A DNA stretch of 64,000 bases from Selaginella tamariscina (taxonomy: Eukaryota > Streptophyta > Lycopodiopsida > Selaginellales > Selaginellaceae): positions 597,932 through 661,931 of the forward strand of contig PUQB01000084.1 in NCBI GenBank assembly GCA_003024785.1. The letters are read 5' to 3'. Within the stretch, counting starts at the first letter, position 1, and every line of letters begins with the position of its first letter. A program made the position numbers and the translations under genes. This document shows positions 24,313 to 64,000 of this stretch, in pieces. The notes beneath the pieces were generated by a model. That model was given only the letters and a program-made list of their open reading frames with translations, had not been told where the DNA came from and made no database searches.

Positions 24313-24365
24313 GGAAACAAGAAAAAGAAAATGCGGAAGAAAGGAATACCCAACTTCTCCACCAA

Positions 24366-39718: not shown

Positions 39719-39723
<5 letters not shown>

Positions 39724-39790
<67 letters not shown>
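39724..39790. repeat. (CT)n(TA)n tract of unit 0
   Basis: About 23 CT then about 10 TA units. The same compound tract sits at the equivalent place in every later unit with different lengths. Confidence 0.95.
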
Positions 39791-41199
39791 AAATAGGTTT
39801 ATAATACAGTAAATCCATATGTATGTATATATCTATATGAGTTAAAGGTGTGTAGATTTGATGGATGTGTATTAAAATTGCAATTTGAAATTAAAAAGAA
39901 ATTATATCTTTTTGTTTATAAACCATATATTATTTGATATTCATATATATATTTTAAAATTTATATATAATATTATATTCATTAATAAAGTATATATCAA
40001 TTTGTATTAAAAAGCACATTATTAATTTTAAAATCAAAATAGAAAGTCTTGCAGTGGTATTTTCCATTTTCATATAAAAATTATTAACTTACAGAAATTA
40101 TTATGAATTTTTTTCTAATGAATTTATTACTGTTCATATGTTATGTAATGTGTATCTATACAATTTATTAATATTCTTTTGCCTTAATCCATGTCTTTTA
40201 TTTATTTGTGTATTTCATCCTCTCTCTCTCTTTAATATATATTTATATAGAGAAAGAGAGAGAGAGACACACACACACAATAAGTTAATATATTAAAATA
40301 ATGTAGATATTTTTCTTTTAAACCTTATTAAAACATTAACTTATTTTCATAAGAAAGAGATCTTAAAGCTAAAATTCTGAATTAGTATACCCAATCTTGC
40401 TAAGTTCATAACAAGATGTTACCTACAATCAAAACTTTACGTAAACCTATATTTATGAATTTGCATGTTAACCAACAATATCTAAATAGAATTGGTAATA
40501 ATTTATAATCATTAATTTTCAGTAAACTAAATAAGTTTCACATACAATTATATATGTATAAATAACTTTTAATTCTAAGTAATTAGTAAAACCTGTATTC
40601 ATATTTTAAAACCACCCACCATATTACGTGCATGCAAGTTACTGTCTCCCATGCGTTGTTGTGGCGTAGTACAAAATGCAAGTGACTCTATTTCGTATAT
40701 ACCCTTGCGAATATAAGAGGACATTCTTCTTTAAGCCGTAGTGTATTTTGCTTTTGAAAATTAATAAACTTAATTCTACAACTTTGCAATTTGATTTTGT
40801 TGCCTAGTGCATTAGCAAACAAAACTGGGTTGGACATAAACGGCCATAAGATTCTCCTCCCTCCATTGATATGCATACTTAAGTGTTATATTCAATGTGT
40901 AAATGTGTTTAAGGGTTAGAGCAATTAAAATCACATATTAGACAAATATGTATATAATTAAAATGGGCATGTCTATAGTCCCATTTTTTAATATTAACAA
41001 TTTTAATTATTTAATTAGCATTTTTTAATATTAAAGAAATATTCTTTAAAATATATGTTTGAAGATAGAAAATTCTTTAAAATATTCTATTTTGTAACCC
41101 TTTAATAAATTATAGTTAAAAATTAATAACATTATAAAATTAAAAGGTATTAAATTATATAATATATTATATTTAAGATTGTATAGGCTTAATATAAAA

Positions 41200-44055
41200 T
41201 TAAGGAAGAACATAAGAGGTACATTATATAAATATTGATGTTGTTATTAAAATATTAATATTTAAATATAACATTAATTAAAAATTTGTATTAGTAATAT
41301 ACACACACACACACACACACACACATTTATATATATATATAATATACAAAATCCTATAATAATATAGTCAATCTTCCATATCTTTTTATAAATTTATATA
41401 GTTAAGTAAACAATTTGGTACTATTATTAAAGAGTTTATTATAAATATGAATATTAAATAAATGATATTTTATAATTTTGTAATTGCTTTAAGCTTTAGA
41501 AAATATACATTTTCTTGCAGTTTTGTTAATCATGAGTAATGAGAACCATCATTAATTTTTGAAAATCTTTACAGTAATTAAAGTATGCTTTAGGTTTTTG
41601 GTTCCTTTGTTAACAAAGTGTGGGGTTTGCACTTCCACATCACTACTGGTTTATGTCGTTTGCTCAGTGATGTCATTTCAATCTCCTTCGCCACCTTGTT
41701 TTAGGCCAAAAAGGGTGTTGCAATTCTGTACTTGTGACAGTAGGCCTTCCAACTCTCGAACCAGTCTCCCAATAGTCGACCACATGCTTATATAGTTCTG
41801 AGTAACTAGTTGCCTTATCAGAATTCTTTGGCATCGATTTTTGAACCCATGCCACATATTTTTTGATGCCATCAATAATAACCTCTTGTTCCTTGAGCTG
41901 GGCACTCAATGGAATAGGTCTGGTTGTCCTTCTGGGAGAAGTGGCTTTCCATTCTCTCCACTTTTGAAGAGCATTAAGCCCTCTTTCAACCACTCCTGCT
42001 CTGATGGCCGTAACTTGTACTGCATAATAGGTATACCATCTCTATGGAGAAAAAGAATTGTAGCGGCACAAGGTGACCAACTAAAGAATCACTCCCTCTT
42101 TTTATATACTCCTTGAGAAATTTTTTGAAGTCTGGCACCTCAGTCACAAGCAAAGCACAACTTTTTTTGGAGATGCAATTTTCAAAAAGATTCATCATAT
42201 GCGGTAAGGTAAGTGCACTTGTCCTTTTTGTAGAGTTGGAGACCTTGCTGAAGAACGCATCAATATCTTCATGAGTGTGACCAACCATAAGGAAACTGAG
42301 CGTGATTGTTTAAACACACCTTTGGCAACAAGCATTGACAAGTATGCTAGCACATATCTAGAAAATAAAAGTAAGTATGAGCTTGAGAAACCCTTAAGTA
42401 AAATGATTTACCTATTTTTGTTCTCGCCTGCACAATTATCCATCTGTAAAAAAAATGACGAGGAAGCTTATTTGATGTTGAGGACACATGTACACTATTT
42501 GAGCTAGATCCCTCCACTGAACCAGAACTCTCAACAGGGCCATCTGTTTTTTGTGCAGGCTCTGACAATGCCTCTCATATTCCCAAGTAGCCTCAAGTGC
42601 AGATGTGTTCATGAGAGCATTATGTAAAGGTTGAAGGTGTTGTTTCTTCACTTTGAGATCACTGATAGGACTTGTCTGTGAGTGGGCTTCAAGGTTTTGA
42701 AACACATGGCCAACGACCCAATAGTGAAATTGGAGTCGCTAGACCAATGTGGAAGTGAAAAGTGTCCATATGACTCACAACCGTGTCCATGTGTTAGCAC
42801 ACATGTCAATGAAATCGGAAGTTTCATGACATTTCCAAGGCACTTTGGTGTTGCAAGAGCTTTGGAATGCTGGTCTTTGAATGATCCATCTTGTCATGGA
42901 TCAAGCACAGGTACTCTGATGGGCGTGACACAGAAAGCATGCGGTGTGCATAGTACTGAGACCAAGTTTGTTGTGCAATCATGTGGGCCTCCATCTTCTT
43001 TTGAATGGCAGTGATCTCCACCAAGGTTTTTGCACAAGCCTCTGCAGCCTTCAATGATGTACAAGTGTCACACTTGGAAAAGCTAGAGTGTTTTGCAATC
43101 TCCACATCCTTAAAATGAGTATTCCATATGTTGTTGAAGGTACCAGTGCAGATTGCTTGAGCCCCATCAAACTGAGGCACTTGTTCACATGTTCACACAG
43201 CTTCAATTGAGTGTAGATTGAAGGCAAAACCTTGAGATTTTCCCTGACCCCATTTGGTTCGGCATTTGTGAGGCATCCTGTCTGCATTTGCTTCCACAAA
43301 AGCCTTGAGTATCTCTATGGCTACCATAATGTGAGAGCGGGTTTTGACCAAGGCGAGTGTTCCCATGTATGAGGTTCGCGCTCCATCTAGCCGACGATAG
43401 AACAAGTCTTTGGGATCCTATATAATGTATCAAGCTTTGAAGCAGATGGCCACCTTATTAAATACTATGATGTAGTTTGATAACCTGTGTCCAAGGCCAT
43501 TCCATCAATAGACTCAGTTAGTGCAGCATATACAAACTCATGCCTTTGCTTTTGGGTGAGCGTACAAAAGACATGTCTACATTGGGTAATTTCATTTCGG
43601 TTGCCATCTGACAACACTTCTTCTTGTAGCAGTCAATCGTGGAAATGCTTAATAACACTTGGAAAGATGTAATCCATCTTGACCCTCTTGCCAAACTTGC
43701 AGGGGAAGATCTACAACCATGAATCGCCTTTTTCTTACTATAGAGGAACCTCATCAAATATGGGTTGTCTTTCCAAGTTATTATTAAAATCTAACCTAGA
43801 ATATATTGAATTATCTTGCCGTCTTAATTCAGATATTTGCCACCTCACGAGGGATTCATGATGCAATGTGCCATTAAGTGAAACCTTTGTCACAACTACA
43901 CCCACAAAGTTGGCCCCTAGTTTCTCTTTTGATACTGCTTCCATTAGATTTGTATTATGATGATGCCTCTCCAATCTCGATCTCATAAAGAAAGAGAATC
44001 ACCTCATCCATCACAACAGACAAGCCATCATCTGGTGAACTCGTACTAATATTTA
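41200..44055 (-). pseudogene. Decayed DUF7869-type (DDE-like) transposon, copy B
   Basis: Inverse to copy A (3.7-6.96 kb) and clearly homologous throughout. On the minus strand: GVVVTKVSLNGTL (about 43.9 kb), CDTCTSLK (about 43.07 kb), IHDKMDHSKTSIPKL (about 42.88 kb), DNCAGENKN (about 42.44 kb), VGHTHEDIDAFFSKVS (about 42.28 kb), and a C-terminal basic stretch near 41.9 kb. I associate this motif set with DUF7869 proteins; a transposase role is inferred from the spaced acidic residues and the dispersed copies. It is broken in many places but less decayed than copy A. Its 5' side is cut where array DNA begins (about 44055), and it lacks about 230 bp near the 3' side present in copy A. It lies between unit 0 and unit 1 of the macrosatellite. 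Confidence 0.62.
41301..41342. repeat. (AC)n(TA)n tract at the copy B tail
   Basis: The tract lies at the place where copy A has a pure (TA)n tract (6834-6868), so the microsatellite was part of the element and diverged after duplication. Confidence 0.85.
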
Positions 44056-44952
44056 TAGACACACACAAAATAAGTTAATATATAAAAATAATGTAGATAT
44101 TTTTCTTTTAAACCTCATTAAAACATTAACTTATTTTCATAAGAAAGAGCTTAAAGCTAAAATTCTGAATTAGTATACCCAATCTTGCTAAGTTCATAAC
44201 AAGATCAAAACTTTACATAAACCTATATTTATGAATTTGCATGTTAGCCAACAATATCTAAATAGAATTGGTAATAATTTATAATCATTAAAACCAATTT
44301 ATAATCATTAAAACTTTCTCTCTTAACTTCACCATCACTCTTAACAAACACGCGCTCCACTTGCTTTATAACATTGGAATTGGTCAATAAAGAGTCCAGA
44401 GAAATTAACGAGTGCACATTTTAGGTGGTCGGACTCAGGTTTATTCATCCATGTGATATAAAGGCCGTAGCTCTATCATGTAATCATTTGTGCACATTAA
44501 GCATGTTACACACACACATTAGAAACAATGACCCACCCACCATATTACGTGCATGCAAGTTACTCGTCTCCCATGCGTTGTTGTTGCGTAGGGTGTACGT
44601 ACAAAATGCAAGTGACTCTATTTCGTATATACCCTCGCGAATATAAGAGGACATTCTTCTTTAAGCCGCGGTGTATTTTGCTTTTGAAAATTAATAAGCT
44701 TAATTCTACAGCTTTGCAATTTGATTTTGTTGCCTAGTGCATTAGCAAACAAAACTGGGTTGGACATAAACGGCCATAAGATTCTCCTCCTCCATTGATA
44801 TGCATGCTTAGGTGTTATATTCAACGTGTGAATGTGTTTCAAGGGCTAGAGCAATTAAATCGCATATTAGACCAATTAAGATCGCAATTAGAACGCCTTA
44901 AATGAATGAAACACGCTCTCACGCGTGCTTGTGTCACGCGCATCAAACACGC

Positions 44953-44959
44953 TATAAAA
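44953..44959 (+). promoter_or_regulatory. TATA box of unit 1 coding segment
   Basis: TATAAAA 102 bp before the MASVEL-type ATG, same layout as in unit 2. Confidence 0.5.
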
Positions 44960-45054
44960 AGAGATGCCATTGGATGCGAGTCCATACCGTGTTTTCCCTT
45001 GCTCAAGCCTAGGTATATAAGGAGGAGGACCCCGCAAGGAACTTTAGGTTTAGC

Positions 45055-45708
45055 ATGGCGTCCGTGGAGTTGGAGCAGACGGAGGAGTTGGAGAGGCAGA
45101 GGCTGCGCATGAACGTAGTAATGGAGGCAGGAAGAAGGGTAACGAGATCGATGGGAATCGGCCTATTGACAGTCTAGAGAGAATAGTGAGCGCGTACTTT
45201 AGGTGGCTGGACATGGACAACACAACGATCCGAGTTGTGCGTGGCATCCCAAACACTAAGAAGGTCATTCTCAAGTGTACAAGGACAGAACAGGGAAGCC
45301 CTGTTGAGTAGCACGATGAAGAACATTGCGAGGCGGAAGGATGTGCCGGTATATTCTCGGCCCACCTAACAAAGCAACAGCACGAAGAGCGAACCAGGCA
45401 ACATCGAACGCGAGGAGAGGCGTAGGGAGCGACGGGAGCGCATGCTCTATTTGAGAGGAGCCCGAGGGGAGGATGCCGCTATTGGCCACGTCGAACACTT
45501 TCTAAACCGAGTTCTCAAGCTCAGTGACAACGCCGAGGTAAGCGAGGCTAAGTGGTTCGACCGACCATTGCCTGGGTTTTCAAGGCCCATTGAAATTGTG
45601 TTCAAGGACCAAGAAACAAAACAAAGGGTGCTTGACGCTTGGAACATGGGAAAGGATGATAGATTCAGTAGGGTTTGCTACAGGTTGATAGAACCCTGCC
45701 CATTGTGA
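45055..45708 (+). pseudogene. ORF1-like coding segment, unit 1 (most decayed copy)
   Basis: Same segment as in unit 2 (see there), but with extra single- and two-base losses in the first half, so only the second-half frame (45442-45708, 88 residues ending LIEPCPL) is open. Confidence 0.75.
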
Positions 45709-46792
45709 TTTTGTGCAATTAAAGAATTCGTTTGTCAACGAGCTAGAGTCGTATATTCATTAAGGGAAAAAATAATTAGGATGATTCCCAAGAGTCTATA
45801 ACCAGATTTGATCAGCATACACGCCGGGTAAAAAGCCCCAGTGTTGATCTTCACACAGATTTAAGATAATTATTTGATAAGCTTTATAAATAGATATCTG
45901 CATATTGTTAAAGAATTTCTACAATATCCCGAAAGATGTTAGTAAAAGGCAACCAATCGTGTGCCCTATAAAGCGTTACTGACGAGTCACTACCATCAAT
46001 TGCTTATAGTGTTAGTGAAGACACTCATGTTTCTCCTCTTTGTTTCCTACTTAATAGGTTACAGCCTTGACATCATCACTTTGTGCGTCTCTACACACAC
46101 CGCGCGCATTATATGTCTTGTATAGTGACAATTCGTTTCCAAGTGTTTTGAATTAGCATGCCCTATCTTGTGCTACAAGGAATTACTACTTACATTACAT
46201 ATTAACAGTATTAGTGTTACTCCTGAGTCCTATATTTATTTATCACATGTTTTTATGAATTTGCGTGTTAGCCAGCAATGTCGAAATAGAATTAGTAATA
46301 ACTTATTTCTAATAAACCAGCTGTCTAGACTTCACAAACGAACTTCTTTAATGCTTTTAATTCTAAATAACAGGTAAATCTTGTATTTATATTTAAAATT
46401 GCAGTTTCTTTCTTAGCTTCACTATCACTCTATATAAACATGCTCCACTTGCTTTATAAGATTGGAATTGGTCTGCAAAGAGTCTAGAGAGATTACTCAT
46501 CGTAACATAAAGGCCGCAGCTCGCTCTATCACGTAATCATTTATGCATATTGTAAAGACCCTATATACAAGAGTATCTATTCTTAAACTGCCTTGTAAAG
46601 AGAATTTAATTTGCTACAGGTTTTATGTAATATTAATTAGCTCTAAGATGGTCGTTTAGAGTGATTTATTATATGCAATCGATTTATTATCCTTTGCAGT
46701 GATTTAATACATTTGCATTTCAAATTCAATGATATAAGAAATGACATGCGTGTACATACATGTGCCTTAGAACGATAGGAAATACGAAAATA

Positions 46793-46852
46793 CGTCAGCA
46801 GCAAGCCCAATAGATTTCAAGTCTATCTCTTTAACCACTCGGACATGTTGAC
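46793..46852 (-). pseudogene. tRNA-Ser(UGA) relic lacking T arm, unit 1
   Basis: The 60-nt minus-strand sequence begins GTCAACATGTCCGAGTGGTT (acceptor side, D arm with A box), continues with an anticodon stem-loop, loop CTTGAAA (anticodon TGA), and ends TGCTGACG, which still pairs with the 5' GTCAACA at six of seven positions. About 22 nt covering most of the variable arm and T arm (B box) are gone, so it should not be transcribed by Pol III or fold as a working tRNA. Confidence 0.8.
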
Positions 46853-47205
46853 CAATTTGACTTGCCATGTACGATATATGAAATATTTTATAGCATATAA
46901 CAGCTATATATTCTTAAGTTGCATTTTACAATATTTAACTTTTAGATTCTGCCATGTGCATGGTGTGTGTTACATGTATAAGAACGGACATATATTATAT
47001 GGATATATCCTTAAAAATTTATACACTCTTAGTTTGTATATATGATATGTGTGAGTCTCCATATTTGCATTAATGCATATTTAATAGCCAAGGGATAAGG
47101 ATGCTCACGTATGGAGTTTTTCTTAAATAAATTCAAAGGAAACACTTAATATCTCTGTTTAATACAAACACTCATAAAATTTTCAAACCAAAAAAAGTAT
47201 ACTTT

Positions 47206-47259
<54 letters not shown>

Positions 47260-47260
47260 A
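47206..47260. repeat. (CT)n(TA)n tract, unit 1
   Basis: First of two compound tracts per unit; its length varies between units and accounts for part of the unit-length differences. Confidence 0.93.
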
Positions 47261-47807
47261 AATAGGTTTATAAATACAGTAAATGTATGTATGTATATGT
47301 GTTAAAGGATCCATGTATAACTATTTAAATAGACACGATCCATACCCATAGTTTAGATTTTCTTTTATTACGTCAAGATGGATTATGGGTTTATAATGAG
47401 TGTTTGAAGAGCTTTTTGATGTTCTAAATATGTCATACGCTAGTAAATATACTAATATATTTCAATGCTACAATTGAAATTAGAAAGAGGTTATATCTTT
47501 TTATTTATAAACCATATATTCATTTATATATTTTAAGATTTATATATAATATATTATATTCATTAATAAAGTATATATCAATTTGTATTAAAAAGCACAT
47601 TATTAATTTTAAAATCAAAATAGAAAGTCTTGCAGTGGTATTTTCCATTTTCATATAAAAATTATTAACTTACATTTAAAACTTGAAGTTATTATGAATT
47701 TTTTTCTAATGAATTTATTAAGTGTATCTATACAATTTATTAATATTCTTTTGCCTTAATCCATGTCTTTTATTTATTTGTGTATTTCATCCTCTCTCTC
47801 TCGATCT

Positions 47808-47848
<41 letters not shown>

Positions 47849-48818
47849 CACACACAAAATAAGTTAATATATTAAAATAATGTAGATATTTTTCTTTTAA
47901 ACCTCATTAAAACATTAACTTATTTTCATAAGAAAGAGCTTAAAGCTAAAATTCTGAATTAGTATACCCAATCTTGCTAAGTTCATAACAAGATCAAAAC
48001 TTTACATAAACCTATATTTATGAATTTGCATGTTAGCCAACAATATCTAAATAGAATTGGTAATAATTTATAATCATTAATTTCCAGTAAACTAAATAAG
48101 TTTCACATACAATTATATATGTATAAACAGCTTTTAATTCTGTAAGTAAAACCTGTATTCATATTTTAAAACCAAAACTTTCTCTCTTAACTTCACCATC
48201 ACTCTTAACAAACACGCGCTCCACTTGCTTTATAACATTGGAATTGGTCAATAAAGAGTCCAGAGAAATTAACGAGTGCACATTTTAGGTGGTCGGACTC
48301 AGGTTTATTCATCCATGTGATATAAAGGCCGTAGCTCTATCATGTAATCATTTGTGCACATTAAGCATGTTACACACACACATTAGAAACAATGACCCAC
48401 CCACCATATTACGTGCATGCAAGTTACTCGTCTCCCATGCGTTGTTGTTGCGTAGGGTGTACGTACAAAATGCAAGTGACTCTATTTCGTATATACCCTC
48501 GCGAATATAAGAGGACATTCTTCTTTAAGCCGCGGTGTATTTTGCTTTTGAAAATTAATAAGCTTAATTCTACAGCTTTGCAATTTGATTTTGTTGCCTA
48601 GTGCATTAGCAAACAAAACTGGGTTGGACATAAACGGCCATAAGATTCTCCTCCCTCCATTGATATGCATGCTTAGGTGTTATATTCAACGTGTGAATGT
48701 GTTTCAAGGGCTAGAGCAATTAAAATCGCATATTAGACCAATTAAGATCGCAATTAGAACGCCTTAAATGAATGAAACACGCTCTCACGCGTGCTTGTGT
48801 CACGCGCATCAAACACGC

Positions 48819-48825
48819 TATAAAA
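48819..48825 (+). promoter_or_regulatory. TATA box before the array coding segment (unit 2)
   Basis: CGCTATAAAAAG, 102 bp before the ATG at 48921. A second TATATAAGG lies about 41 bp before that ATG. The longer ATG at 48768 lies upstream of the first TATA box, which argues for 48921 as the start if this promoter is used. Equivalent boxes occur at 44953, 52694, 56571 and 60451. Confidence 0.5.
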
Positions 48826-48920
48826 AGAGATGCCATTGGATGCGAGTCCATACCGTGTTTTCCCTTGCTCAAGCCCAGGTATATAAGGAGGAGGACCCCG
48901 CAAGGAACTTTAGGTTTAGC

Positions 48921-49578
48921 ATGGCGTCCGTGGAGTTGGAGCAGACGGAGGAGTTGGAGAGGCAGAGGCTGCGCATGAACGTAGTAATGGAGGGCAGGAA
49001 GAAGGGTAACGAGATCGATGGGAATCGGCCTATTGACAGTCTAGAGAGAATAGTGAGCGCGTACTTTAGGTGGCTGGACATGGACAACACAACGATCCGA
49101 GTTGTGCGTGGCATCCCAAACACTAAGAAGGTCATTCTCAAGTGTACAAGGACAGAAGACAGGGAAGCCCTGTTGAGTAGCACGATGAAGAACATTGCGA
49201 GGCGGAAGGATGTGCCGGTATATTTCTCGGCCCACCTAACAAAGCAACAGCACGAAGAGCGAACCAGGCAACATCGAACGCGAGGAGAGGCGTAGGGAGC
49301 GACGGGAGCGCATGCTCTATTTGAGAGGAGCCCGAGGGGAGGATGCCGCTATTGGCCACGTCGAACACTTTCTAAACCGAGTTCTCAAGCTCAGTGACAA
49401 CGCCGAGGTAAGCGAGGCTAAGTGGTTCGACCGACCATTGCCTGGGTTTTCAAGGCCCATTGAAATTGTGTTCAAGGACCAAGAAACAAAACAAAGGGTG
49501 CTTGACGCTTGGAACATGGGAAAGGATGATAGATTCAGTAGGGTTTGCTACAGGTTGATAGAACCCTGCCCATTGTGA
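48921..49578 (+). CDS. ORF1-like protein segment in two frames, unit 2
   Basis: The first frame (MASVELEQTEELERQRLRMN..., closed at 49295) contains RPIDSLERIVSAYFRWLDMD, KKVILKCTRTEDREALLSS and VPVYFSAHLTKQQHEERTRQ. The second frame (49312-49578) contains HVEHFLNRVLKLSDNAEVSE, RPIEIVFKDQETKQRVLDAW and ends LIEPCPL. The pattern 'RPI(x)V-F---E-K--VL-A' followed by 'V-F---LT--Q-EER' resembles the C-terminal RNA-binding region of LINE ORF1 proteins (Transposase_22/L1 ORF1 type), present here in two diverged halves. This is family-pattern inference from memory. No reverse transcriptase or endonuclease is in the unit. The frame switch lies at an A run (CGAACGCG here, CGAAACGCG in units 4-5), and both frames stay open across all copies. 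GC content is clearly above the surroundings. Confidence 0.6.
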
Positions 49579-50662
49579 TTTTGTGCAATTAAAGAATTCG
49601 TTTGTCAACGAGCTAGAGTCGTATATTCATTAAGGGAAAAAATAATTAGGATGATTCCCAAGAGTCTATAACCAGATTTGATCAGCATACACGCCGGGTA
49701 AAAAGCCCCAGTGTTGATCTTCACACAGATTTAAGATAATTATTTGATAAGCTTTATAAATAGATATCTGCATATTGTTAAAGAATTTCTACAATATCCC
49801 GAAAGATGTTAGTAAAAGGCAACCAATCGTGTGCCCTATAAAGCGTTACTGACGAGTCACTACCATCAATTGCTTATAGTGTTAGTGAAGACACTCATGT
49901 TTCTCCTCTTTGTTTCCTACTTAATAGGTTACAGCCTTGACATCATCACTTTGTGCGTCTCTACACACACCGCGCGCATTATATGTCTTGTATAGTGACA
50001 ATTCGTTTCCAAGTGTTTTGAATTAGCATGCCCTATCTTGTGCTACAAGGAATTACTACTTACATTACATATTAACAGTATTAGTGTTACTCCTGAGTCC
50101 TATATTTATTTATCACATGTTTTTATGAATTTGCGTGTTAGCCAGCAATGTCGAAATAGAATTAGTAATAACTTATTTCTAATAAACCAGCTGTCTAGAC
50201 TTCACAAACGAACTTCTTTAATGCTTTTAATTCTAAATAACAGGTAAATCTTGTATTTATATTTAAAATTGCAGTTTCTTTCTTAGCTTCACTATCACTC
50301 TATATAAACATGCTCCACTTGCTTTATAAGATTGGAATTGGTCTGCAAAGAGTCTAGAGAGATTACTCATCGTAACATAAAGGCCGCAGCTCGCTCTATC
50401 ACGTAATCATTTATGCATATTGTAAAGACCCTATATACAAGAGTATCTATTCTTAAACTGCCTTGTAAAGAGAATTTAATTTGCTACAGGTTTTATGTAA
50501 TATTAATTAGCTCTAAGATGGTCGTTTAGAGTGATTTATTATATGCAATCGATTTATTATCCTTTGCAGTGATTTAATACATTTGCATTTCAAATTCAAT
50601 GATATAAGAAATGACATGCGTGTACATACATGTGCCTTAGAACGATAGGAAATACGAAAATA

Positions 50663-50722
50663 CGTCAGCAGCAAGCCCAATAGATTTCAAGTCTATCTCT
50701 TTAACCACTCGGACATGTTGAC
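50663..50722 (-). pseudogene. tRNA-Ser(UGA) relic lacking T arm, unit 2
   Basis: Identical in layout to the unit 1 relic. Confidence 0.8.
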
Positions 50723-51075
50723 CAATTTGACTTGCCATGTACGATATATGAAATATTTTATAGCATATAACAGCTATATATTCTTAAGTTGCATTTTACA
50801 ATATTTAACTTTTAGATTCTGCCATGTGCATGGTGTGTGTTACATGTATAAGAACGGACATATATTATATGGATATATCCTTAAAAATTTATACACTCTT
50901 AGTTTGTATATATGATATGTGTGAGTCTCCATATTTGCATTAATGCATATTTAATAGCCAAGGGATAAGGATGCTCACGTATGGAGTTTTTCTTAAATAA
51001 ATTCAAAGGAAACACTTAATATCTCTGTTTAATACAAACACTCATAAAATTTTCAAACCAAAAAAAGTATACTTT

Positions 51076-51125
<50 letters not shown>

Positions 51126-51680
51126 ATATATATAGGTTTATAAATACAGTAAATGTATGTATGTATATGTGTTAAAGGATCCATGTATAACTATTTAAAT
51201 AGACACGATCCATACCCATAGTTTAGATTTTCTTTTATTACGTCAAGATGGATTATGGGTTTATAATGAGTGTTTGAAGAGCTTTTTGATGTTCTAAATA
51301 TGTCATACGCTAGTAAATATACTAATATATTTCAATGCTACAATTGAAATTAGAAAGAGGTTATATCTTTTTATTTATAAACCATATATTCATTTATATA
51401 TTTTAAGATTTATATATAATATATTATATTCATTAATAAAGTATATATCAATTTGTATTAAAAAGCACATTATTAATTTTAAAATCAAAATAGAAAGTCT
51501 TGCAGTGGTATTTTCCATTTTCATATAAAAATTATTAACTTACATTTAAAACTTGAAGTTATTATGAATTTTTTTCTAATGAATTTATTAAGTGTATCTA
51601 TACAATTTATTAATATTCTTTTGCCTTAATCCATGTCTTTTATTTATTTGTGTATTTCATCCTCTCTCTCTCGATCTCTT

Positions 51681-51716
<36 letters not shown>

Positions 51717-52693
51717 CACACACACAAAATAAGTTAATATATTAAAATAATGTAGATATTTTTCTTTTAAACCTCATTAAAACATTAACTTATTTTCATA
51801 AGAAAGAGCTTAAAGCTAAAATTCTGAATTAGTATACCCAATCTTGCTAAGTTCATAACAAGATCAAAACTTTACATAAACCTATATTTATGAATTTGCA
51901 TGTTAGCCAACAATATCTAAATAGAATTGGTAATAATTTATAATCATTAATTTCCAGTAAACTAAATAAGTTTCACATACAATTATATATGTATAAACAG
52001 CTTTTAATTCTAAGTAATTGGTAAAACCTGTATTCATATTTTAAAACCAAAACTTTCTCTCTTAACTTCACCATCACTCTTAACAAACACGCGCTCCACT
52101 TGCTTTATAACATTGGAATTGGTCAATAAAGAGTCCAGAGAAATTAACGAGTGCACATTTTAGGTGGTCGGACTCAGGTTTATTCATCCATGTGATATAA
52201 AGGCCGTAGCTCTATCATGTAATCATTTGTGCACATTAAGCATGTTACACACACACATTAGAAACAATGACCCACCCACCATATTACGTGCATGCAAGTT
52301 ACTCGTCTCCCATGCGTTGTTGTTGCGTAGGGTGTACGTACAAAATGCAAGTGACTCTATTTCGTATATACCCTCGCGAATATAAGAGGACATTCTTCTT
52401 TAAGCCGCGGTGTATTTTGCTTTTGAAAATTAATAAGCTTAATTCTACAGCTTTGCAATTTGATTTTGTTGCCTAGTGCATTAGCAAACAAAACTGGGTT
52501 GGACATAAACGGCCATAAGATTCTCCTCCCTCCATTGATATGCATGCTTAGGTGTTATATTCAACGTGTGAATGTGTTTCAAGGGCTAGAGCAATTAAAA
52601 TCGCATATTAGACCAATTAAGATCGCAATTAGAACGCCTTAAATGAATGAAACACGCTCTCACGCGTGCTTGTGTCACGCGCATCAAACACGC

Positions 52694-52700
52694 TATAAAA
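52694..52700 (+). promoter_or_regulatory. TATA box, unit 3
   Basis: Same TATAAAA and spacing as in unit 2. Confidence 0.5.
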
Positions 52701-52795
52701 AGAGATGCCATTGGATGCGAGTCCATACCGTGTTTTCCCTTGCTCAAGCCCAGGTATATAAGGAGGAGGACCCCGCAAGGAACTTTAGGTTTAGC

Positions 52796-53453
52796 ATGGC
52801 GTCCGTGGAGTTGGAGCAGACGGAGGAGTTGGAGAGGCAGAGGCTGCGCATGAACGTAGTAATGGAGGGCAGGAAGAAGGGTAACGAGATCGATGGGAAT
52901 CGGCCTATTGACAGTCTAGAGAGAATAGTGAGCGCGTACTTTAGGTGGCTGGACATGGACAACACAACGATCCGAGTTGTGCGTGGCATCCCAAACACTA
53001 AGAAGGTCATTCTCAAGTGTACAAGGACAGAAGACAGGGAAGCCCTGTTGAGTAGCACGATGAAGAACATTGCGAGGCGGAAGGATGTGCCGGTATATTT
53101 CTCGGCCCACCTAACAAAGCAACAGCACGAAGAGCGAACCAGGCAACATCGAACGCGAGGAGAGGCGTAGGGAGCGACGGGAGCGCATGCTCTATTTGAG
53201 AGGAGCCCGAGGGGAGGATGCCGCTATTGGCCACGTCGAACACTTTCTAAACCGAGTTCTCAAGCTCAGTGACAACGCCGAGGTAAGCGAGGCTAAGTGG
53301 TTCGACCGACCATTGCCTGGGTTTTCAAGGCCCATTGAAATTGTGTTCAAGGACCAAGAAACAAAACAAAGGGTGCTTGACGCTTGGAACATGGGAAAGG
53401 ATGATAGATTCAGTAGGGTTTGCTACAGGTTGATAGAACCCTGCCCATTGTGA
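52796..53453 (+). CDS. ORF1-like protein segment in two frames, unit 3
   Basis: Reads the same as the unit 2 segment, including the short A run at the frame switch. First frame closes at 53170; second frame is 53187-53453. Confidence 0.6.
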
Positions 53454-54537
53454 TTTTGTGCAATTAAAGAATTCGTTTGTCAACGAGCTAGAGTCGTATA
53501 TTCATTAAGGGAAAAAATAATTAGGATGATTCCCAAGAGTCTATAACCAGATTTGATCAGCATACACGCCGGGTAAAAAGCCCCAGTGTTGATCTTCACA
53601 CAGATTTAAGATAATTATTTGATAAGCTTTATAAATAGATATCTGCATATTGTTAAAGAATTTCTACAATATCCCGAAAGATGTTAGTAAAAGGCAACCA
53701 ATCGTGTGCCCTATAAAGCGTTACTGACGAGTCACTACCATCAATTGCTTATAGTGTTAGTGAAGACACTCATGTTTCTCCTCTTTGTTTCCTACTTAAT
53801 AGGTTACAGCCTTGACATCATCACTTTGTGCGTCTCTACACACACCGCGCGCATTATATGTCTTGTATAGTGACAATTCGTTTCCAAGTGTTTTGAATTA
53901 GCATGCCCTATCTTGTGCTACAAGGAATTACTACTTACATTACATATTAACAGTATTAGTGTTACTCCTGAGTCCTATATTTATTTATCACATGTTTTTA
54001 TGAATTTGCGTGTTAGCCAGCAATGTCGAAATAGAATTAGTAATAACTTATTTCTAATAAACCAGCTGTCTAGACTTCACAAACGAACTTCTTTAATGCT
54101 TTTAATTCTAAATAACAGGTAAATCTTGTATTTATATTTAAAATTGCAGTTTCTTTCTTAGCTTCACTATCACTCTATATAAACATGCTCCACTTGCTTT
54201 ATAAGATTGGAATTGGTCTGCAAAGAGTCTAGAGAGATTACTCATCGTAACATAAAGGCCGCAGCTCGCTCTATCACGTAATCATTTATGCATATTGTAA
54301 AGACCCTATATACAAGAGTATCTATTCTTAAACTGCCTTGTAAAGAGAATTTAATTTGCTACAGGTTTTATGTAATATTAATTAGCTCTAAGATGGTCGT
54401 TTAGAGTGATTTATTATATGCAATCGATTTATTATCCTTTGCAGTGATTTAATACATTTGCATTTCAAATTCAATGATATAAGAAATGACATGCGTGTAC
54501 ATACATGTGCCTTAGAACGATAGGAAATACGAAAATA

Positions 54538-54597
54538 CGTCAGCAGCAAGCCCAATAGATTTCAAGTCTATCTCTTTAACCACTCGGACATGTTGAC
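54538..54597 (-). pseudogene. tRNA-Ser(UGA) relic lacking T arm, unit 3
   Basis: Identical in layout to the unit 1 relic. Confidence 0.8.
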
Positions 54598-54952
54598 CAA
54601 TTTGACTTGCCATGTACGATATATGAAATATTTTATAGCATATAACAGCTATATATTCTTAAGTTGCATTTTACAATATTTAACTTTTAGATTCTGCCAT
54701 GTGCATGGTGTGTGTTACATGTATAAGAACGGACATATATTATATGGATATATCCTTAAAAATTTATACACTCTTAGTTTGTATATATGATATGTGTGAG
54801 TCTCCATATTTGCATTAATGCATATTTAATAGCCAAGGGATAAGGATGCTCACGTATGGAGTTTTTCTTAAATAAATTCAAAGGAAACACTTAATATCTC
54901 TGTTTAATACAAACACTCATAAAATTTTCAAACCAAAAAAAGTATACTTTGT

Positions 54953-55011
<59 letters not shown>

Positions 55012-55556
55012 GTTTATAAATACAGTAAATGTATGTATGTATATGTGTTAAAGGATCCATGTATAACTATTTAAATAGACACGATCCATACCCATAGTTT
55101 AGATTTTCTTTTATTACGTCAAGATGGATTATGGGTTTATAATGAGTGTTTGAAGAGCTTTTTGATGTTCTAAATATGTCATACGCTAGTAAATATACTA
55201 ATATATTTCAATGCTACAATTGAAATTAGAAAGAGGTTATATCTTTTTATTTATAAACCATATATTCATTTATATATTTTAAGATTTATATATAATATAT
55301 TATATTCATTAATAAAGTATATATCAATTTGTATTAAAAAGCACATTATTAATTTTAAAATCAAAATAGAAAGTCTTGCAGTGGTATTTTCCATTTTCAT
55401 ATAAAAATTATTAACTTACATTTAAAACTTGAAGTTATTATGAATTTTTTTCTAATGAATTTATTAAGTGTATCTATACAATTTATTAATATTCTTTTGC
55501 CTTAATCCATGTCTTTTATTTATTTGTGTATTTCATCCTCTCTCTCTCGATCTCTT

Positions 55557-55592
<36 letters not shown>

Positions 55593-56570
55593 CACCACAC
55601 ACAAAATAAGTTAATATATTAAAATAATGTAGATATTTTTCTTTTAAACCTCATTAAAACATTAACTTATTTTCATAAGAAAGAGCTTAAAGCTAAAATT
55701 CTGAATTAGTATACCCAATCTTGCTAAGTTCATAACAAGATCAAAACTTTACATAAACCTATATTTATGAATTTGCATGTTAGCCAACAATATCTAAATA
55801 GAATTGGTAATAATTTATAATCATTAATTTCCAGTAAACTAAATAAGTTTCACATACAATTATATATGTATAAACAGCTTTTAATTCTAAGTAATTGGTA
55901 AAACCTGTATTCATATTTTAAAACCAAAACTTTCTCTCTTAACTTCACCATCACTCTTAACAAACACGCGCTCCACTTGCTTTATAACATTGGAATTGGT
56001 CAATAAAGAGTCCAGAGAAATTAACGAGTGCACATTTTAGGTGGTCGGACTCAGGTTTATTCATCCATGTGATATAAAGGCCGTAGCTCTATCATGTAAT
56101 CATTTGTGCACATTAAGCATGTTACACACACACATTAGAAACAATGACCCACCCACCATATTACGTGCATGCAAGTTACTCGTCTCCCATGCGTTGTTGT
56201 TGCGTAGGGTGTACGTACAAAATGCAAGTGACTCTATTTCGTATATACCCTCGCGAATATAAGAGGACATTCTTCTTTAAGCCGCGGTGTATTTTGCTTT
56301 TGAAAATTAATAAGCTTAATTCTACAGCTTTGCAATTTGATTTTGTTGCCTAGTGCATTAGCAAACAAAACTGGGTTGGACATAAACGGCCATAAGATTC
56401 TCCTCCCTCCATTGATATGCATGCTTAGGTGTTATATTCAACGTGTGAATGTGTTTCAAGGGCTAGAGCAATTAAAATCGCATATTAGACCAATTAAGAT
56501 CGCAATTAGAACGCCTTAAATGAATGAAACACGCTCTCACGCGTGCTTGTGTCACGCGCATCAAACACGC

Positions 56571-56577
56571 TATAAAA
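56571..56577 (+). promoter_or_regulatory. TATA box, unit 4
   Basis: Same TATAAAA and spacing as in unit 2. Confidence 0.5.
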
Positions 56578-56672
56578 AGAGATGCCATTGGATGCGAGTC
56601 CATACCGTGTTTTCCCTTGCTCAAGCCCAGGTATATAAGGAGGAGGACCCCGCAAGGAACTTTAGGTTTAGC

Positions 56673-57331
56673 ATGGCGTCCGTGGAGTTGGAGCAGACGG
56701 AGGAGTTGGAGAGGCAGAGGCTGCGCATGAACGTAGTAATGGAGGGCAGGAAGAAGGGTAACGAGATCGATGGGAATCGGCCTATTGACAGTCTAGAGAG
56801 AATAGTGAGCGCGTACTTTAGGTGGCTGGACATGGACAACACAACGATCCGAGTTGTGCGTGGCATCCCAAACACTAAGAAGGTCATTCTCAAGTGTACA
56901 AGGACAGAAGACAGGGAAGCCCTGTTGAGTAGCACGATGAAGAACATTGCGAGGCGGAAGGATGTGCCGGTATATTTCTCGGCCCACCTAACAAAGCAAC
57001 AGCACGAAGAGCGAACCAGGCAACATCGAAACGCGAGGAGAGGCGTAGGGAGCGACGGGAGCGCATGCTCTATTTGAGAGGAGCCCGAGGGGAGGATGCC
57101 GCTATTGGCCACGTCGAACACTTTCTAAACCGAGTTCTCAAGCTCAGTGACAACGCCGAGGTAAGCGAGGCTAAGTGGTTCGACCGACCATTGCCTGGGT
57201 TTTCAAGGCCCATTGAAATTGTGTTCAAGGACCAAGAAACAAAACAAAGGGTGCTTGACGCTTGGAACATGGGAAAGGATGATAGATTCAGTAGGGTTTG
57301 CTACAGGTTGATAGAACCCTGCCCATTGTGA
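56673..57331 (+). CDS. ORF1-like protein segment, two overlapping frames, unit 4
   Basis: With the extra A the first frame runs on to 57077 and ends HRNARRGVGSDGSACSI. The second frame opens with ATG at 57065, so the two overlap by 13 nt. Otherwise as in unit 2. Confidence 0.6.
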
Positions 57332-58415
57332 TTTTGTGCAATTAAAGAATTCGTTTGTCAACGAGCTAGAGTCGTATATTCATTAAGGGAAAAAATAATT
57401 AGGATGATTCCCAAGAGTCTATAACCAGATTTGATCAGCATACACGCCGGGTAAAAAGCCCCAGTGTTGATCTTCACACAGATTTAAGATAATTATTTGA
57501 TAAGCTTTATAAATAGATATCTGCATATTGTTAAAGAATTTCTACAATATCCCGAAAGATGTTAGTAAAAGGCAACCAATCGTGTGCCCTATAAAGCGTT
57601 ACTGACGAGTCACTACCATCAATTGCTTATAGTGTTAGTGAAGACACTCATGTTTCTCCTCTTTGTTTCCTACTTAATAGGTTACAGCCTTGACATCATC
57701 ACTTTGTGCGTCTCTACACACACCGCGCGCATTATATGTCTTGTATAGTGACAATTCGTTTCCAAGTGTTTTGAATTAGCATGCCCTATCTTGTGCTACA
57801 AGGAATTACTACTTACATTACATATTAACAGTATTAGTGTTACTCCTGAGTCCTATATTTATTTATCACATGTTTTTATGAATTTGCGTGTTAGCCAGCA
57901 ATGTCGAAATAGAATTAGTAATAACTTATTTCTAATAAACCAGCTGTCTAGACTTCACAAACGAACTTCTTTAATGCTTTTAATTCTAAATAACAGGTAA
58001 ATCTTGTATTTATATTTAAAATTGCAGTTTCTTTCTTAGCTTCACTATCACTCTATATAAACATGCTCCACTTGCTTTATAAGATTGGAATTGGTCTGCA
58101 AAGAGTCTAGAGAGATTACTCATCGTAACATAAAGGCCGCAGCTCGCTCTATCACGTAATCATTTATGCATATTGTAAAGACCCTATATACAAGAGTATC
58201 TATTCTTAAACTGCCTTGTAAAGAGAATTTAATTTGCTACAGGTTTTATGTAATATTAATTAGCTCTAAGATGGTCGTTTAGAGTGATTTATTATATGCA
58301 ATCGATTTATTATCCTTTGCAGTGATTTAATACATTTGCATTTCAAATTCAATGATATAAGAAATGACATGCGTGTACATACATGTGCCTTAGAACGATA
58401 GGAAATACGAAAATA

Positions 58416-58475
58416 CGTCAGCAGCAAGCCCAATAGATTTCAAGTCTATCTCTTTAACCACTCGGACATGTTGAC
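58416..58475 (-). pseudogene. tRNA-Ser(UGA) relic lacking T arm, unit 4
   Basis: Identical in layout to the unit 1 relic. Confidence 0.8.
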
Positions 58476-58828
58476 CAATTTGACTTGCCATGTACGATAT
58501 ATGAAATATTTTATAGCATATAACAGCTATATATTCTTAAGTTGCATTTTACAATATTTAACTTTTAGATTCTGCCATGTGCATGGTGTGTGTTACATGT
58601 ATAAGAACGGACATATATTATATGGATATATCCTTAAAAATTTATACACTCTTAGTTTGTATATATGATATGTGTGAGTCTCCATATTTGCATTAATGCA
58701 TATTTAATAGCCAAGGGATAAGGATGCTCACGTATGGAGTTTTTCTTAAATAAATTCAAAGGAAACACTTAATATCTCTGTTTAATACAAACACTCATAA
58801 AATTTTCAAACCAAAAAAAGTATACTTT

Positions 58829-58893
<65 letters not shown>

Positions 58894-59435
58894 GTTTATA
58901 AATACAGTAAATGTATGTATGTATATGTGTTAAAGGATCCATGTATAACTATTTAAATAGACACGATCCATACCCATAGTTTAGATTTTCTTTTATTACG
59001 TCAAGATGGATTATGGGTTTATAATGAGTGTTTGAAGAGCTTTTTGATGTTCTAAATATGTCATACGCTAGTAAATATACTAATATATTTCAATGCTACA
59101 ATTGAAATTAGAAAGAGGTTATATCTTTTTATTTATAAACCATATATTCATTTATATATTTTAAGATTTATATATAATATATTATATTCATTAATAAAGT
59201 ATATATCAATTTGTATTAAAAAGCACATTATTAATTTTAAAATCAAAATAGAAAGTCTTGCAGTGGTATTTTCCATTTTCATATAAAAATTATTAACTTA
59301 CATTTAAAACTTGAAGTTATTATGAATTTTTTTCTAATGAATTTATTAAGTGTATCTATACAATTTATTAATATTCTTTTGCCTTAATCCATGTCTTTTA
59401 TTTATTTGTGTATTTCATCCTCTCTCTCTCGATCT

Positions 59436-59476
<41 letters not shown>

Positions 59477-60450
59477 CACACACAAATAAGTTAATATATT
59501 AAAATAATGTAGATATTTTTCTTTTAAACCTCATTAAAACATTAACTTATTTTCATAAGAAAGAGCTTAAAGCTAAAATTCTGAATTAGTATACCCAATC
59601 TTGCTAAGTTCATAACAAGATCAAAACTTTACATAAACCTATATTTATGAATTTGCATGTTAGCCAACAATATCTAAATAGAATTGGTAATAATTTATAA
59701 TCATTAATTTCCAGTAAACTAAATAAGTTTCACATACAATTATATATGTATAAACAGCTTTTAATTCTAAGTAATTGGTAAAACCTGTATTCATATTTTA
59801 AAACCAAAACTTTCTCTCTTAACTTCACCATCACTCTTAACAAACACGCGCTCCACTTGCTTTATAACATTGGAATTGGTCAATAAAGAGTCCAGAGAAA
59901 TTAACGAGTGCACATTTTAGGTGGTCGGACTCAGGTTTATTCATCCATGTGATATAAAGGCCGTAGCTCTATCATGTAATCATTTGTGCACATTAAGCAT
60001 GTTACACACACACATTAGAAACAATGACCCACCCACCATATTACGTGCATGCAAGTTACTCGTCTCCCATGCGTTGTTGTTGCGTAGGGTGTACGTACAA
60101 AATGCAAGTGACTCTATTTCGTATATACCCTCGCGAATATAAGAGGACATTCTTCTTTAAGCCGCGGTGTATTTTGCTTTTGAAAATTAATAAGCTTAAT
60201 TCTACAGCTTTGCAATTTGATTTTGTTGCCTAGTGCATTAGCAAACAAAACTGGGTTGGACATAAACGGCCATAAGATTCTCCTCCCTCCATTGATATGC
60301 ATGCTTAGGTGTTATATTCAACGTGTGAATGTGTTTCAAGGGCTAGAGCAATTAAAATCGCATATTAGACCAATTAAGATCGCAATTAGAACGCCTTAAA
60401 TGAATGAAACACGCTCTCACGCGTGCTTGTGTCACGCGCATCAAACACGC

Positions 60451-60457
60451 TATAAAA
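60451..60457 (+). promoter_or_regulatory. TATA box, unit 5
   Basis: Same TATAAAA and spacing as in unit 2. Confidence 0.5.
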
Positions 60458-60552
60458 AGAGATGCCATTGGATGCGAGTCCATACCGTGTTTTCCCTTGC
60501 TCAAGCCCAGGTATATAAGGAGGAGGACCCCGCAAGGAACTTTAGGTTTAGC

Positions 60553-61211
60553 ATGGCGTCCGTGGAGTTGGAGCAGACGGAGGAGTTGGAGAGGCAGAGG
60601 CTGCGCATGAACGTAGTAATGGAGGGCAGGAAGAAGGGTAACGAGATCGATGGGAATCGGCCTATTGACAGTCTAGAGAGAATAGTGAGCGCGTACTTTA
60701 GGTGGCTGGACATGGACAACACAACGATCCGAGTTGTGCGTGGCATCCCAAACACTAAGAAGGTCATTCTCAAGTGTACAAGGACAGAAGACAGGGAAGC
60801 CCTGTTGAGTAGCACGATGAAGAACATTGCGAGGCGGAAGGATGTGCCGGTATATTTCTCGGCCCACCTAACAAAGCAACAGCACGAAGAGCGAACCAGG
60901 CAACATCGAAACGCGAGGAGAGGCGTAGGGAGCGACGGGAGCGCATGCTCTATTTGAGAGGAGCCCGAGGGGAGGATGCCGCTATTGGCCACGTCGAACA
61001 CTTTCTAAACCGAGTTCTCAAGCTCAGTGACAACGCCGAGGTAAGCGAGGCTAAGTGGTTCGACCGACCATTGCCTGGGTTTTCAAGGCCCATTGAAATT
61101 GTGTTCAAGGACCAAGAAACAAAACAAAGGGTGCTTGACGCTTGGAACATGGGAAAGGATGATAGATTCAGTAGGGTTTGCTACAGGTTGATAGAACCCT
61201 GCCCATTGTGA
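60553..61211 (+). CDS. ORF1-like protein segment, two overlapping frames, unit 5
   Basis: Reads as in unit 4: first frame to 60957, second frame from ATG 60945 to 61211. Confidence 0.6.
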
Positions 61212-62298
61212 TTTTGTGCAATTAAAGAATTCGTTTGTCAACGAGCTAGAGTCGTATATTCATTAAGGGAAAAAATAATTAGGATGATTCCCAAGAGTCT
61301 ATAACCAGATTTGATCAGCATACACGCCGGGTAAAAAGCCCCAGTGTTGATCTTCACACAGATTTAAGATAATTATTTGATAAGCTTTATAAATAGATAT
61401 CTGCATATTGTTAAAGAATTTCTACAATATCCCGAAAGATGTTAGTAAAAGGCAACCAATCGTGTGCCCTATAAAGCGTTACTGACGACGAGTCACTACC
61501 ATCAATTGCTTATAGTGTTAGTGAAGACACTCATGTTTCTCCTCTTTGTTTCCTACTTAATAGGTTACAGCCTTGACATCATCACTTTGTGCGTCTCTAC
61601 ACACACCGCGCGCATTATATGTCTTGTATAGTGACAATTCGTTTCCAAGTGTTTTGAATTAGCATGCCCTATCTTGTGCTACAAGGAATTACTACTTACA
61701 TTACATATTAACAGTATTAGTGTTACTCCTGAGTCCTATATTTATTTATCACATGTTTTTATGAATTTGCGTGTTAGCCAGCAATGTCGAAATAGAATTA
61801 GTAATAACTTATTTCTAATAAACCAGCTGTCTAGACTTCACAAACGAACTTCTTTAATGCTTTTAATTCTAAATAACAGGTAAATCTTGTATTTATATTT
61901 AAAATTGCAGTTTCTTTCTTAGCTTCACTATCACTCTATATAAACATGCTCCACTTGCTTTATAAGATTGGAATTGGTCTGCAAAGAGTCTAGAGAGATT
62001 ACTCATCGTAACATAAAGGCCGCAGCTCGCTCTATCACGTAATCATTTATGCATATTGTAAAGACCCTATATACAAGAGTATCTATTCTTAAACTGCCTT
62101 GTAAAGAGAATTTAATTTGCTACAGGTTTTATGTAATATTAATTAGCTCTAAGATGGTCGTTTAGAGTGATTTATTATATGCAATCGATTTATTATCCTT
62201 TGCAGTGATTTAATACATTTGCATTTCAAATTCAATGATATAAGAAATGACATGCGTGTACATACATGTGCCTTAGAACGATAGGAAATACGAAAATA

Positions 62299-62358
62299 CG
62301 TCAGCAGCAAGCCCAATAGATTTCAAGTCTATCTCTTTAACCACTCGGACATGTTGAC
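62299..62358 (-). pseudogene. tRNA-Ser(UGA) relic lacking T arm, unit 5
   Basis: Identical in layout to the unit 1 relic. Confidence 0.8.
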
Positions 62359-62711
62359 CAATTTGACTTGCCATGTACGATATATGAAATATTTTATAGC
62401 ATATAACAGCTATATATTCTTAAGTTGCATTTTACAATATTTAACTTTTAGATTCTGCCATGTGCATGGTGTGTGTTACATGTATAAGAACGGACATATA
62501 TTATATGGATATATCCTTAAAAATTTATACACTCTTAGTTTGTATATATGATATGTGTGAGTCTCCATATTTGCATTAATGCATATTTAATAGCCAAGGG
62601 ATAAGGATGCTCACGTATGGAGTTTTTCTTAAATAAATTCAAAGGAAACACTTAATATCTCTGTTTAATACAAACACTCATAAAATTTTCAAACCAAAAA
62701 AAGTATACTTT

Positions 62712-62772
<61 letters not shown>

Positions 62773-63313
62773 GGTTTATAAATACAGTAAATGTATGTAT
62801 GTATATGTGTTAAAGGATCCATGTATAACTATTTAAATAGACACGATCCATACCCATAGTTTAGATTTTCTTTTATTACGTCAAGATGGATTATGGGTTT
62901 ATAATGAGTGTTTGAAGAGCTTTTTGATGTTCTAAATATGTCATACGCTAGTAAATATACTAATATATTTCAATGCTACAATTGAAATTAGAAAGAGGTT
63001 ATATCTTTTTATTTATAAACCATATATTCATTTATATATTTTAAGATTATATATATATTATATATTCATTAATAAAGTATATATCAATTTGTATTAAAAA
63101 GCACATTATTAATTTTAAAATCAAAATAGAAAGTCTTGCAGTGGTATTTTCCATTTTCATATAAAAATTATTAACTTACATTTAAAACTTGAAGTTATTA
63201 TGAATTTTTTTCTAATGAATTTATTAAGTGTATCTATACAATTTATTAATATTCTTTTGCCTTAATCCATGTCTTTTATTTATTTGTGTATTTCATCCTC
63301 TCTCTCTCGATCT

Positions 63314-63356
<43 letters not shown>

Positions 63357-63367
63357 CACACAACAAA

Positions 63368-64000
63368 AATAAGTTAATATATTAAAATAATGTAGATATT
63401 TTTCTTTTAAACCTCATTAAAACATTAACTTATTTTCATAAGAAAGAGCTTAAAGCTAAAATTCTGAATTAGTATACCCAATCTTGCTAAGTTCATAACA
63501 AGATCAAAACTTTACATAAACCTATATTTATGAATTTGCATGTTAGCCAACAATATCTAAATAGAATTGGTAATAATTTATAATCATTAATTTCCAGTAA
63601 ACTAAATAAGTTTCACATACAATTATATATGTATAAACAGCTTTTAATTCTAAGTAATTGGTAAAACCTGTATTCATATTTTAAAACCAAAACTTTCTCT
63701 CTTAACTTCACCATCACTCTTAACAAACACGCGCTCCACTTGCTTTATAACATTGGAATTGGTCAATAAAGAGTCCAGAGAAATTAACGAGTGCACATTT
63801 TAGGTGGTCGGACTCAGGTTTATTCATCCATGTGATATAAAGGCCGTAGCTCTATCATGTAATCATTTGTGCACATTAAGCATGTTACACACACACATTA
63901 GAAACACATGACCCACCCACCATATTACGTGCATGCAAGTTACTCGTCTCCCATGCGTTGTTGTTGCGTAGGGTGTACGTACAAAATGCAAGTGACTCTA
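63368..64000 (+). repeat. Macrosatellite unit 6, cut by the window end
   Basis: The first 633 bp of another unit, again nearly identical, so the array continues beyond the window. Confidence 0.95.

Follow-up and report, generated by a model that had tools for sequence, protein, structure and literature searches.

The final part of a 64-kb stretch of Selaginella tamariscina DNA (64,000 nucleotides of contig PUQB01000084.1, hereafter the window), from 44056 to 64000, is filled by five complete head-to-tail units of about 3.87 kb and the start of a sixth. The units are nearly identical, and each holds a gene-like segment composed of two open reading frames (ORFs), here called half 1 and half 2, behind a TATA-like motif. 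We consider it fairly probable that these units form a recently amplified tandem segmental array, a macrosatellite, that is copied passively and whose frame-broken gene segment comes most likely from an ORF1-type gene, or a relative of one. The description concerns one locus, and the window ends inside the array.

Organisation and age of the array

The unit anchors lie at 44085, 47874, 51744, 55621, 59501 and 63384, with anchor-to-anchor spacings of 3789, 3870, 3877, 3880 and 3883 bp. The last four values reproduce exactly those of an earlier note on this DNA, made from the letters alone, whose count of at least five complete units and a sixth cut by the window end also agrees with the anchors; the first spacing was absent from its list. 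When the array is compared with itself by BLAST, long alignments of 99.3-99.7% identity are obtained. Macrosatellites are made of head-to-tail, near-identical, multi-kilobase units, and this array has all these properties. Its left border coincides with a (TA)n-(CA)n tract that belongs to the unit.

For the comparison of the units, the dinucleotide microsatellites and their edges were masked, which removed 213 of the 3,891 alignment columns. Any two of units 3, 4 and 5 then show no substitution over 3,671-3,674 unmasked sites, with 1-3 indel events, and unit 2 is separated from these three by 3 substitutions, all located within the block 48142-48145, and by 1-4 indel events. A one-base state at 49276 distinguishes units 1-3 from units 4-5, and unit 5 is marked by one 3-base insertion and one 3-base deletion. 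The earlier note, which ascribed nearly all differences between units to the length of the microsatellites, is therefore correct for units 2-5 but less so for unit 1, which shows 8 substitutions and 7-10 indel events when compared to the others. Relative to units 2 and 3, the differences of unit 1 are confined to a replaced block (44291-44309) and to a cluster (44788-45353) of 5 small deletions and 1 substitution; one further single-base difference is found at 44084, upstream of the anchor. The cluster stems either from an unreliable consensus at the edge of the array or from a burst of changes confined to this spot. Its 5 small deletions fit in 566 bases, and the next 2.5 kb are devoid of any unmasked difference from units 2 and 3.

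The mutation rate of plants is about 7e-9 per site and year. At this rate, the absence of substitutions between units 3-5 over about 3,670 sites dates their shared ancestry to no more than some 60 thousand years ago, unless they are actively homogenised. The near-identity of the units thus supports the recent amplification or homogenisation that had been proposed.

A gene-like segment without an intact frame

The presence in each unit of a GC-richer segment behind a TATA-like motif, already noticed, was recovered. Indeed, the motif TATATAAGG occurs in all five complete units (45014, 48880, 52755, 56632 and 60512), each time 41 bases ahead of an ATG, and the GC content per 100 bases is 46-61% at 48746-49445, against 12-42% elsewhere in the unit. 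A scan of the TATA region for bacterial-type promoters was set aside as inapplicable to a eukaryote.

Half 1 has the same length in unit 3 (start at 52796, 124 codons) as in unit 2 and is longer in units 4 and 5 (56673 and 60553, 134 codons each), and in unit 1 (45055) it meets a stop after 40 codons. Half 2 extends over 88 codons from its ATG in 5/5 units (45442, 53187, 57065 and 60945 outside unit 2). The two halves lie in different frames in units 2-5: half 1 stops 16 bases short of the half 2 ATG in units 2 and 3, and in units 4 and 5 its frame overlaps 13 bases of the half 2 ORF. Both ATGs of unit 1 share a frame, with stops between them. None of the five units thus contains a single frame spanning both halves, a point absent from the earlier note. 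Programmed frameshifting between the halves was considered and set aside, because units 2-3 and units 4-5 would require different shifts. The earlier note had also spoken of two diverged halves. That they are diverged copies of each other we reject: their alignment gives a z of -0.03, and a local score as high as theirs arises in 726 of 2000 shuffles. The GC content by codon position is coding-like in both (51/39/68 for half 1, 55/39/56 for half 2).

Origin of the gene-like segment

The segment had been read as having the pattern of the ORF1 RNA-binding protein of a long interspersed nuclear element (LINE), and this reading is supported in part. In single-sequence AlphaFold models, half 1 is predicted to form a beta-alpha-beta-beta-alpha-beta layout followed by a helix, and half 2 an alpha-beta-beta-alpha layout whose outer strands are unmodelled; both models are compatible with the fold of an RNA recognition motif (RRM). 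When the half 2 model was compared to the PDB with Foldseek, the first-ranked match was the human LINE-1 ORF1p structure 2w7a (E 0.32, probability 0.77, template modelling score 0.53), and two further LINE-1 ORF1p structures, 2yko and 2ykq, came at ranks 44 and 49. For half 1, several ferredoxin-like, S6 or RRM proteins are found among the best 50 of 1144 Foldseek matches, SART3 RRM2 being at rank 47. Half 1 also aligns with the LINE-1 RRM, weakly but in order, with a semi-global z of 2.6 (92 of 5000 shuffles reach the score) and a local z of 1.3 (237 of 2000).

Several results weigh against this descent or against the reading as a whole. The profile search against Transposase_22/L1 ORF1 models, which the earlier note had itself named as a refuting test, goes against it: Pfam, run on both halves up to a limit of E 10 with HMMER filters that discard most matches above about E 0.1, reported neither Transposase_22 nor any other ORF1 model. 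The one hit obtained, for half 1, is to the F1 lobe of FERM (E 0.0011, 19.3 bits for a cut-off of 26.7). The AlphaFold models are of low confidence (mean predicted local distance difference test scores of 56.0 and 58.4), and no Foldseek match reaches E 0.001 for either half (0/1144 for half 1, 0/217 for half 2). The top PDB match of half 1 is a chain of the eIF2-eIF2B complex (E 0.0096), and no LINE ORF1p is present among its best 50 of 1144 matches. The alignment of half 2 with the LINE-1 RRM is not significant (semi-global z 1.0, 812 of 5000 shuffles; local z 0.25, 768 of 2000). The longest stop-free stretch, 159 codons, is equalled in 201 of 2000 Markov-simulated sequences, so that stop-free length alone proves nothing. 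Finally, an error in the sequence could account for the break between the frames, and in unit 1 the small deletions resemble consensus errors from noisy reads.

Sequence profiles place the segment in neither type I nor type II of the LINE ORF1 proteins. Type I proteins can hold several RRMs in a row (PMC4120745), and the predicted layout of our two halves is compatible with an RRM. However, the type II profile (Transposase_22, PF02994; coiled coil, RRM and C-terminal domain) is matched neither by the halves nor by the six frames of one unit, and the six-frame Pfam scan of one unit (open pieces of at least 20 residues, about 4,640 residues) found no zinc knuckle, the CCHC motif that type I carries downstream of its RRM. 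No CCHC, coiled-coil or C-terminal domain model was thus matched, and the sequence similarity is weak for half 1 and absent for half 2. The same scan found no reverse transcriptase or endonuclease, the enzymes of an autonomous LINE, in line with the earlier statement that reverse transcriptase is lacking. It returned three families, all below cut-off: FERM F1 (E 0.0093), Terpene_synth (0.15) and EMC4 (0.66). The FERM F1 match of half 1 appears in the frame scans at E 0.0051 and 0.0093; we set this identity aside, since it stays under the cut-off of that family and is at odds with the modelled layout, although this does not disprove it.

The open frames could also have nothing to do with ORF1: they might belong to a lineage-specific gene, or the GC-rich stretch might be fortuitous. 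Such a proposal concerns descent only and is compatible with passive amplification, and we regard it as rather unlikely, though less so than the other alternatives. Nothing above cut-off was obtained in Pfam or in NCBIfam (weak matches at E 0.02 and 0.086), the best PHROGs match is at E 0.35, PDB sequence searches with either half returned no match at E up to 10, and the length of the stop-free stretch is not significant. The best match of half 2 in a viral structure library (E 0.21) is unconvincing. No relatives were confirmed for half 1 among viral contigs and bacterial and archaeal genomes, nor for half 2 among viral contigs, and one unit had no match in plasmid DNA; these non-plant collections carry little weight. 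The coding-like composition, the RRM-compatible models and the first rank of LINE-1 ORF1p in the PDB for half 2 argue in the other direction. We favour ORF1 descent, unproven as it is, and do not class the segment as a member of the family.

Earlier rounds of duplication

The present array is not the first duplication at this locus, since an older, diverged partial copy of the unit lies just to its left in the same orientation. The identity of this copy to the unit climbs from left to right, from 74% (39106-39830) through 84% (39885-40275) to 92.5-93.4% (40267-40947). Two parts of the unit are missing from it, the stretch 48175-48396 and the ORF-bearing segment 48743-50445.

The unit itself contains two internal repeats, S1 and S2, which flank the ORF segment about 2.1 kb apart and are 70% alike over their main part (48010-48271 and 50115-50365). 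Within S1, 62 bases (48237-48298) are 71% like the half 1 coding stretch 49018-49079, with a score of 26 when the maximum among 500 Markov-simulated sequences is 18, and the S2 stretch scores 19 for a simulated maximum of 14. Taken together, the older copy, the S1/S2 repeats and the fragment resembling half 1 therefore indicate that local duplication and decay took place here more than once.

The distance between the anchor of the older copy (40295) and that of unit 1 (44085) is 3790, nearly the 3789 of unit 1. It is mostly occupied by an unrelated relic bearing DUF7869, and the match is perhaps a coincidence.

How the array may have been amplified

Passive copying at the DNA level is favoured; no other means of copying was recognised in the unit. 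In the scenario that we propose, the gene-like segment, with its own TATA-like motif, would most likely derive from the RRM-containing, RNA-binding ORF1 of a non-long terminal repeat (non-LTR) retrotransposon, or from a related gene, and would no longer form one intact reading frame. The copies would arise by unequal exchange or by replication-based copying between units, and the amplification perhaps began at the (TA)n-(CA)n tract where the array has its left border. The encoded protein would not be the agent of the copying; the gene would be carried along passively and is presumably without function.

A working tandem gene array, with an RRM-type protein (a domesticated ORF1) produced from every unit in the manner of D4Z4 with DUX4 or RS447 with its deubiquitinating enzyme, seems to us unlikely. 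The two frames would then be either one gene misread through sequencing errors or two adjoining cistrons. The TATA-like motif stands at the same distance from the ATG in every complete unit, all five share the same half 2, open from its ATG, the first 119 residues of half 1 are invariant in four of them, and the composition by codon position is coding-like. Reinitiation is conceivable as well, because the halves overlap by 13 bases (units 4 and 5) or sit 16 bases apart (units 2 and 3). However, a single frame never joins the two halves and a stop interrupts half 1 in unit 1, the identity between units follows from recent copying and is no evidence of selection, and no coding homologue was found in the collections searched.

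Repeated tandem insertion of a non-autonomous LINE-like element, carrying ORF1 only and helped in trans by a LINE elsewhere, would account for the hints of ORF1 (the first PDB match of half 2 and the alignment of half 1), for the lack of reverse transcriptase and for the promoter-like TATA motif. Nevertheless, the AT-rich joints between units are also present in the older copy, which has no ORF, and there is no poly(A) tail at the unit joint, since runs of A and runs of T in unit 2 both reach at most 7 bases. The near-identity across the whole 3.87 kb also suits block copying, and we hold such insertion to be improbable.

We attach equally little probability to an assembly artefact, that is, to the expansion by the assembler of one or a few real units. 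The very high identity and the cluster of small deletions in unit 1, which resembles a poor consensus, would be expected from it. Yet the units can be told apart by their microsatellite lengths, by the block 48142-48145, by the base at 49276 and by the two 3-base indels of unit 5, and an older diverged copy adjoins the array. Least likely of all is a working array gene of LINE ORF1 origin that is translated into two distinct RRM proteins, from cistrons that overlap or adjoin, with an RNA-binding product that acts on the array transcripts.

Relation to known repeats

The earlier note had called a protein-bearing satellite unusual. This is not supported: the human macrosatellites D4Z4 (3.3 kb, DUX4), RS447 (4.7 kb, a deubiquitinating enzyme) and the TAF11-Like array each carry one ORF per unit (PMC3018141). 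With these our array shares multi-kilobase, tandem, near-identical units with one gene-like segment each; it differs from them in that its gene is RRM/ORF1-like, that no single intact frame is found in the five units and that it stands in a plant genome. In the legume Lathyrus sativus, 9 of 11 satellites are described as originating from short tandem arrays inside LTR-retrotransposons (PMC7004042). There too, retroelement-associated tandem repeats have expanded into satellite-like arrays in a plant, whereas our unit measures 3.87 kb and may go back to a LINE ORF1.

The EKA gene family of the powdery mildew Blumeria derives from a LINE ORF1, with full-length LINE relatives known and a cysteine-rich domain in the parent ORF1 (PMC4641428). 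Truncated LINE ORF1 sequence in many copies, separate from ORF2, would be common to both cases if the ORF1 descent, unproven here, is accepted. In contrast to EKA, the copies described here are in tandem, and neither a LINE nor a zinc knuckle was found in the unit. Our literature search found no report joining tandem repeat, LINE ORF1 and macrosatellite, and we do not claim that none exists.

The combination of features may be new while the kind of repeat is already known: the array is a fresh example of that kind and not a new kind of element. If the ORF1 descent is true, it would illustrate clearly how a fragment of a retroelement gene can enter a tandem satellite, with the older copy and fossil stages preserved at one locus. 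As it stands, the array is a well-preserved example of tandem amplification in recent times and can serve to date unit turnover.

Other features of the unit and of its surroundings

The features of the array and of its left side are collected in Table 1.

Table 1. Positions of the array units, of the elements mapped in unit 2 and of the neighbouring relics in the window
Feature	Position	Strand	Basis or remark
Older diverged partial copy of the unit, without ORF segment	39106..40947	+	identity to the unit rising from 74% to 93%, left to right
DUF7869-bearing element relic bordering the array's left side	41227..44054	-	one of an inverted pair
Unit 1, left-edge unit	44056..47873	+	block 44291-44309 replaced; 5 small deletions and 1 substitution within 44788-45353
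Unit 2	47874..51743	+	3870 bp, anchor spacing
Internal repeat S1, unit 2	48010..48362	+	48237-48298 resembles half 1 stretch 49018-49079 (71%)
TATA-like motif TATATAAGG, unit 2	48880..48888	+	41 bases upstream of ATG
Half 1 frame, unit 2	48921..49295	+	124 codons, RRM-compatible predicted layout
Half 2 frame, unit 2	49240..49578	+	open from 49240; first ATG 49312; 88 codons from ATG
Internal repeat S2, unit 2	50115..50421	+	opposite side of ORF segment from S1; 70% to S1 over main part
tRNA-like relic without T arm, unit 2	50663..50722	-	Rfam, 29.2 bits (gathering score 29)
Unit 3	51744..55620	+	3877 bp, anchor spacing
Unit 4	55621..59500	+	3880 bp, anchor spacing
Unit 5	59501..63383	+	3883 bp, anchor spacing
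Unit 6, incomplete at window end	63384..64000	+	anchor

A tRNA-like relic is present on the minus strand of all five complete units (46793-46852, 50663-50722, 54538-54597, 58416-58475 and 62299-62358) and can be read as a putative tRNA-Ser(UGA) lacking the T arm. ARAGORN found none, and Rfam detected no such relic in the older copy (39000-39700). At 39432 stands AACCCTAAACCCT, which resembles plant telomere repeats.

The DUF7869-bearing relic lies between the older copy and the array and belongs to an inverted pair (3974-6940 and 41227-44054, 85-88% identical), its main part being 88% identical to the inverted relic at 3974-6421. The ORF 15451-16608 matches DUF7796, a plant family. We found no literature on DUF7796 or DUF7869, without claiming that none exists. 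The frames at 7889-8709, two stretches of which gave no Pfam match, resemble what we take to be CRINKLY4-type repeats; together with the DUF7796 match and the telomere-like stretch, they suggest the nuclear genome of a land plant. A frame at 28355-28921 (minus strand) has a weak match to Sulfotransfer_3 (E 0.0009, below cut-off). The window further contains a minisatellite with 5.2 copies of a 45-bp unit (3292-3523) and, on the minus strand at 19633-24574, a Gypsy-like LTR retrotransposon with integrase and reverse transcriptase domains and 211-bp terminal direct repeats that are 98.6% identical.

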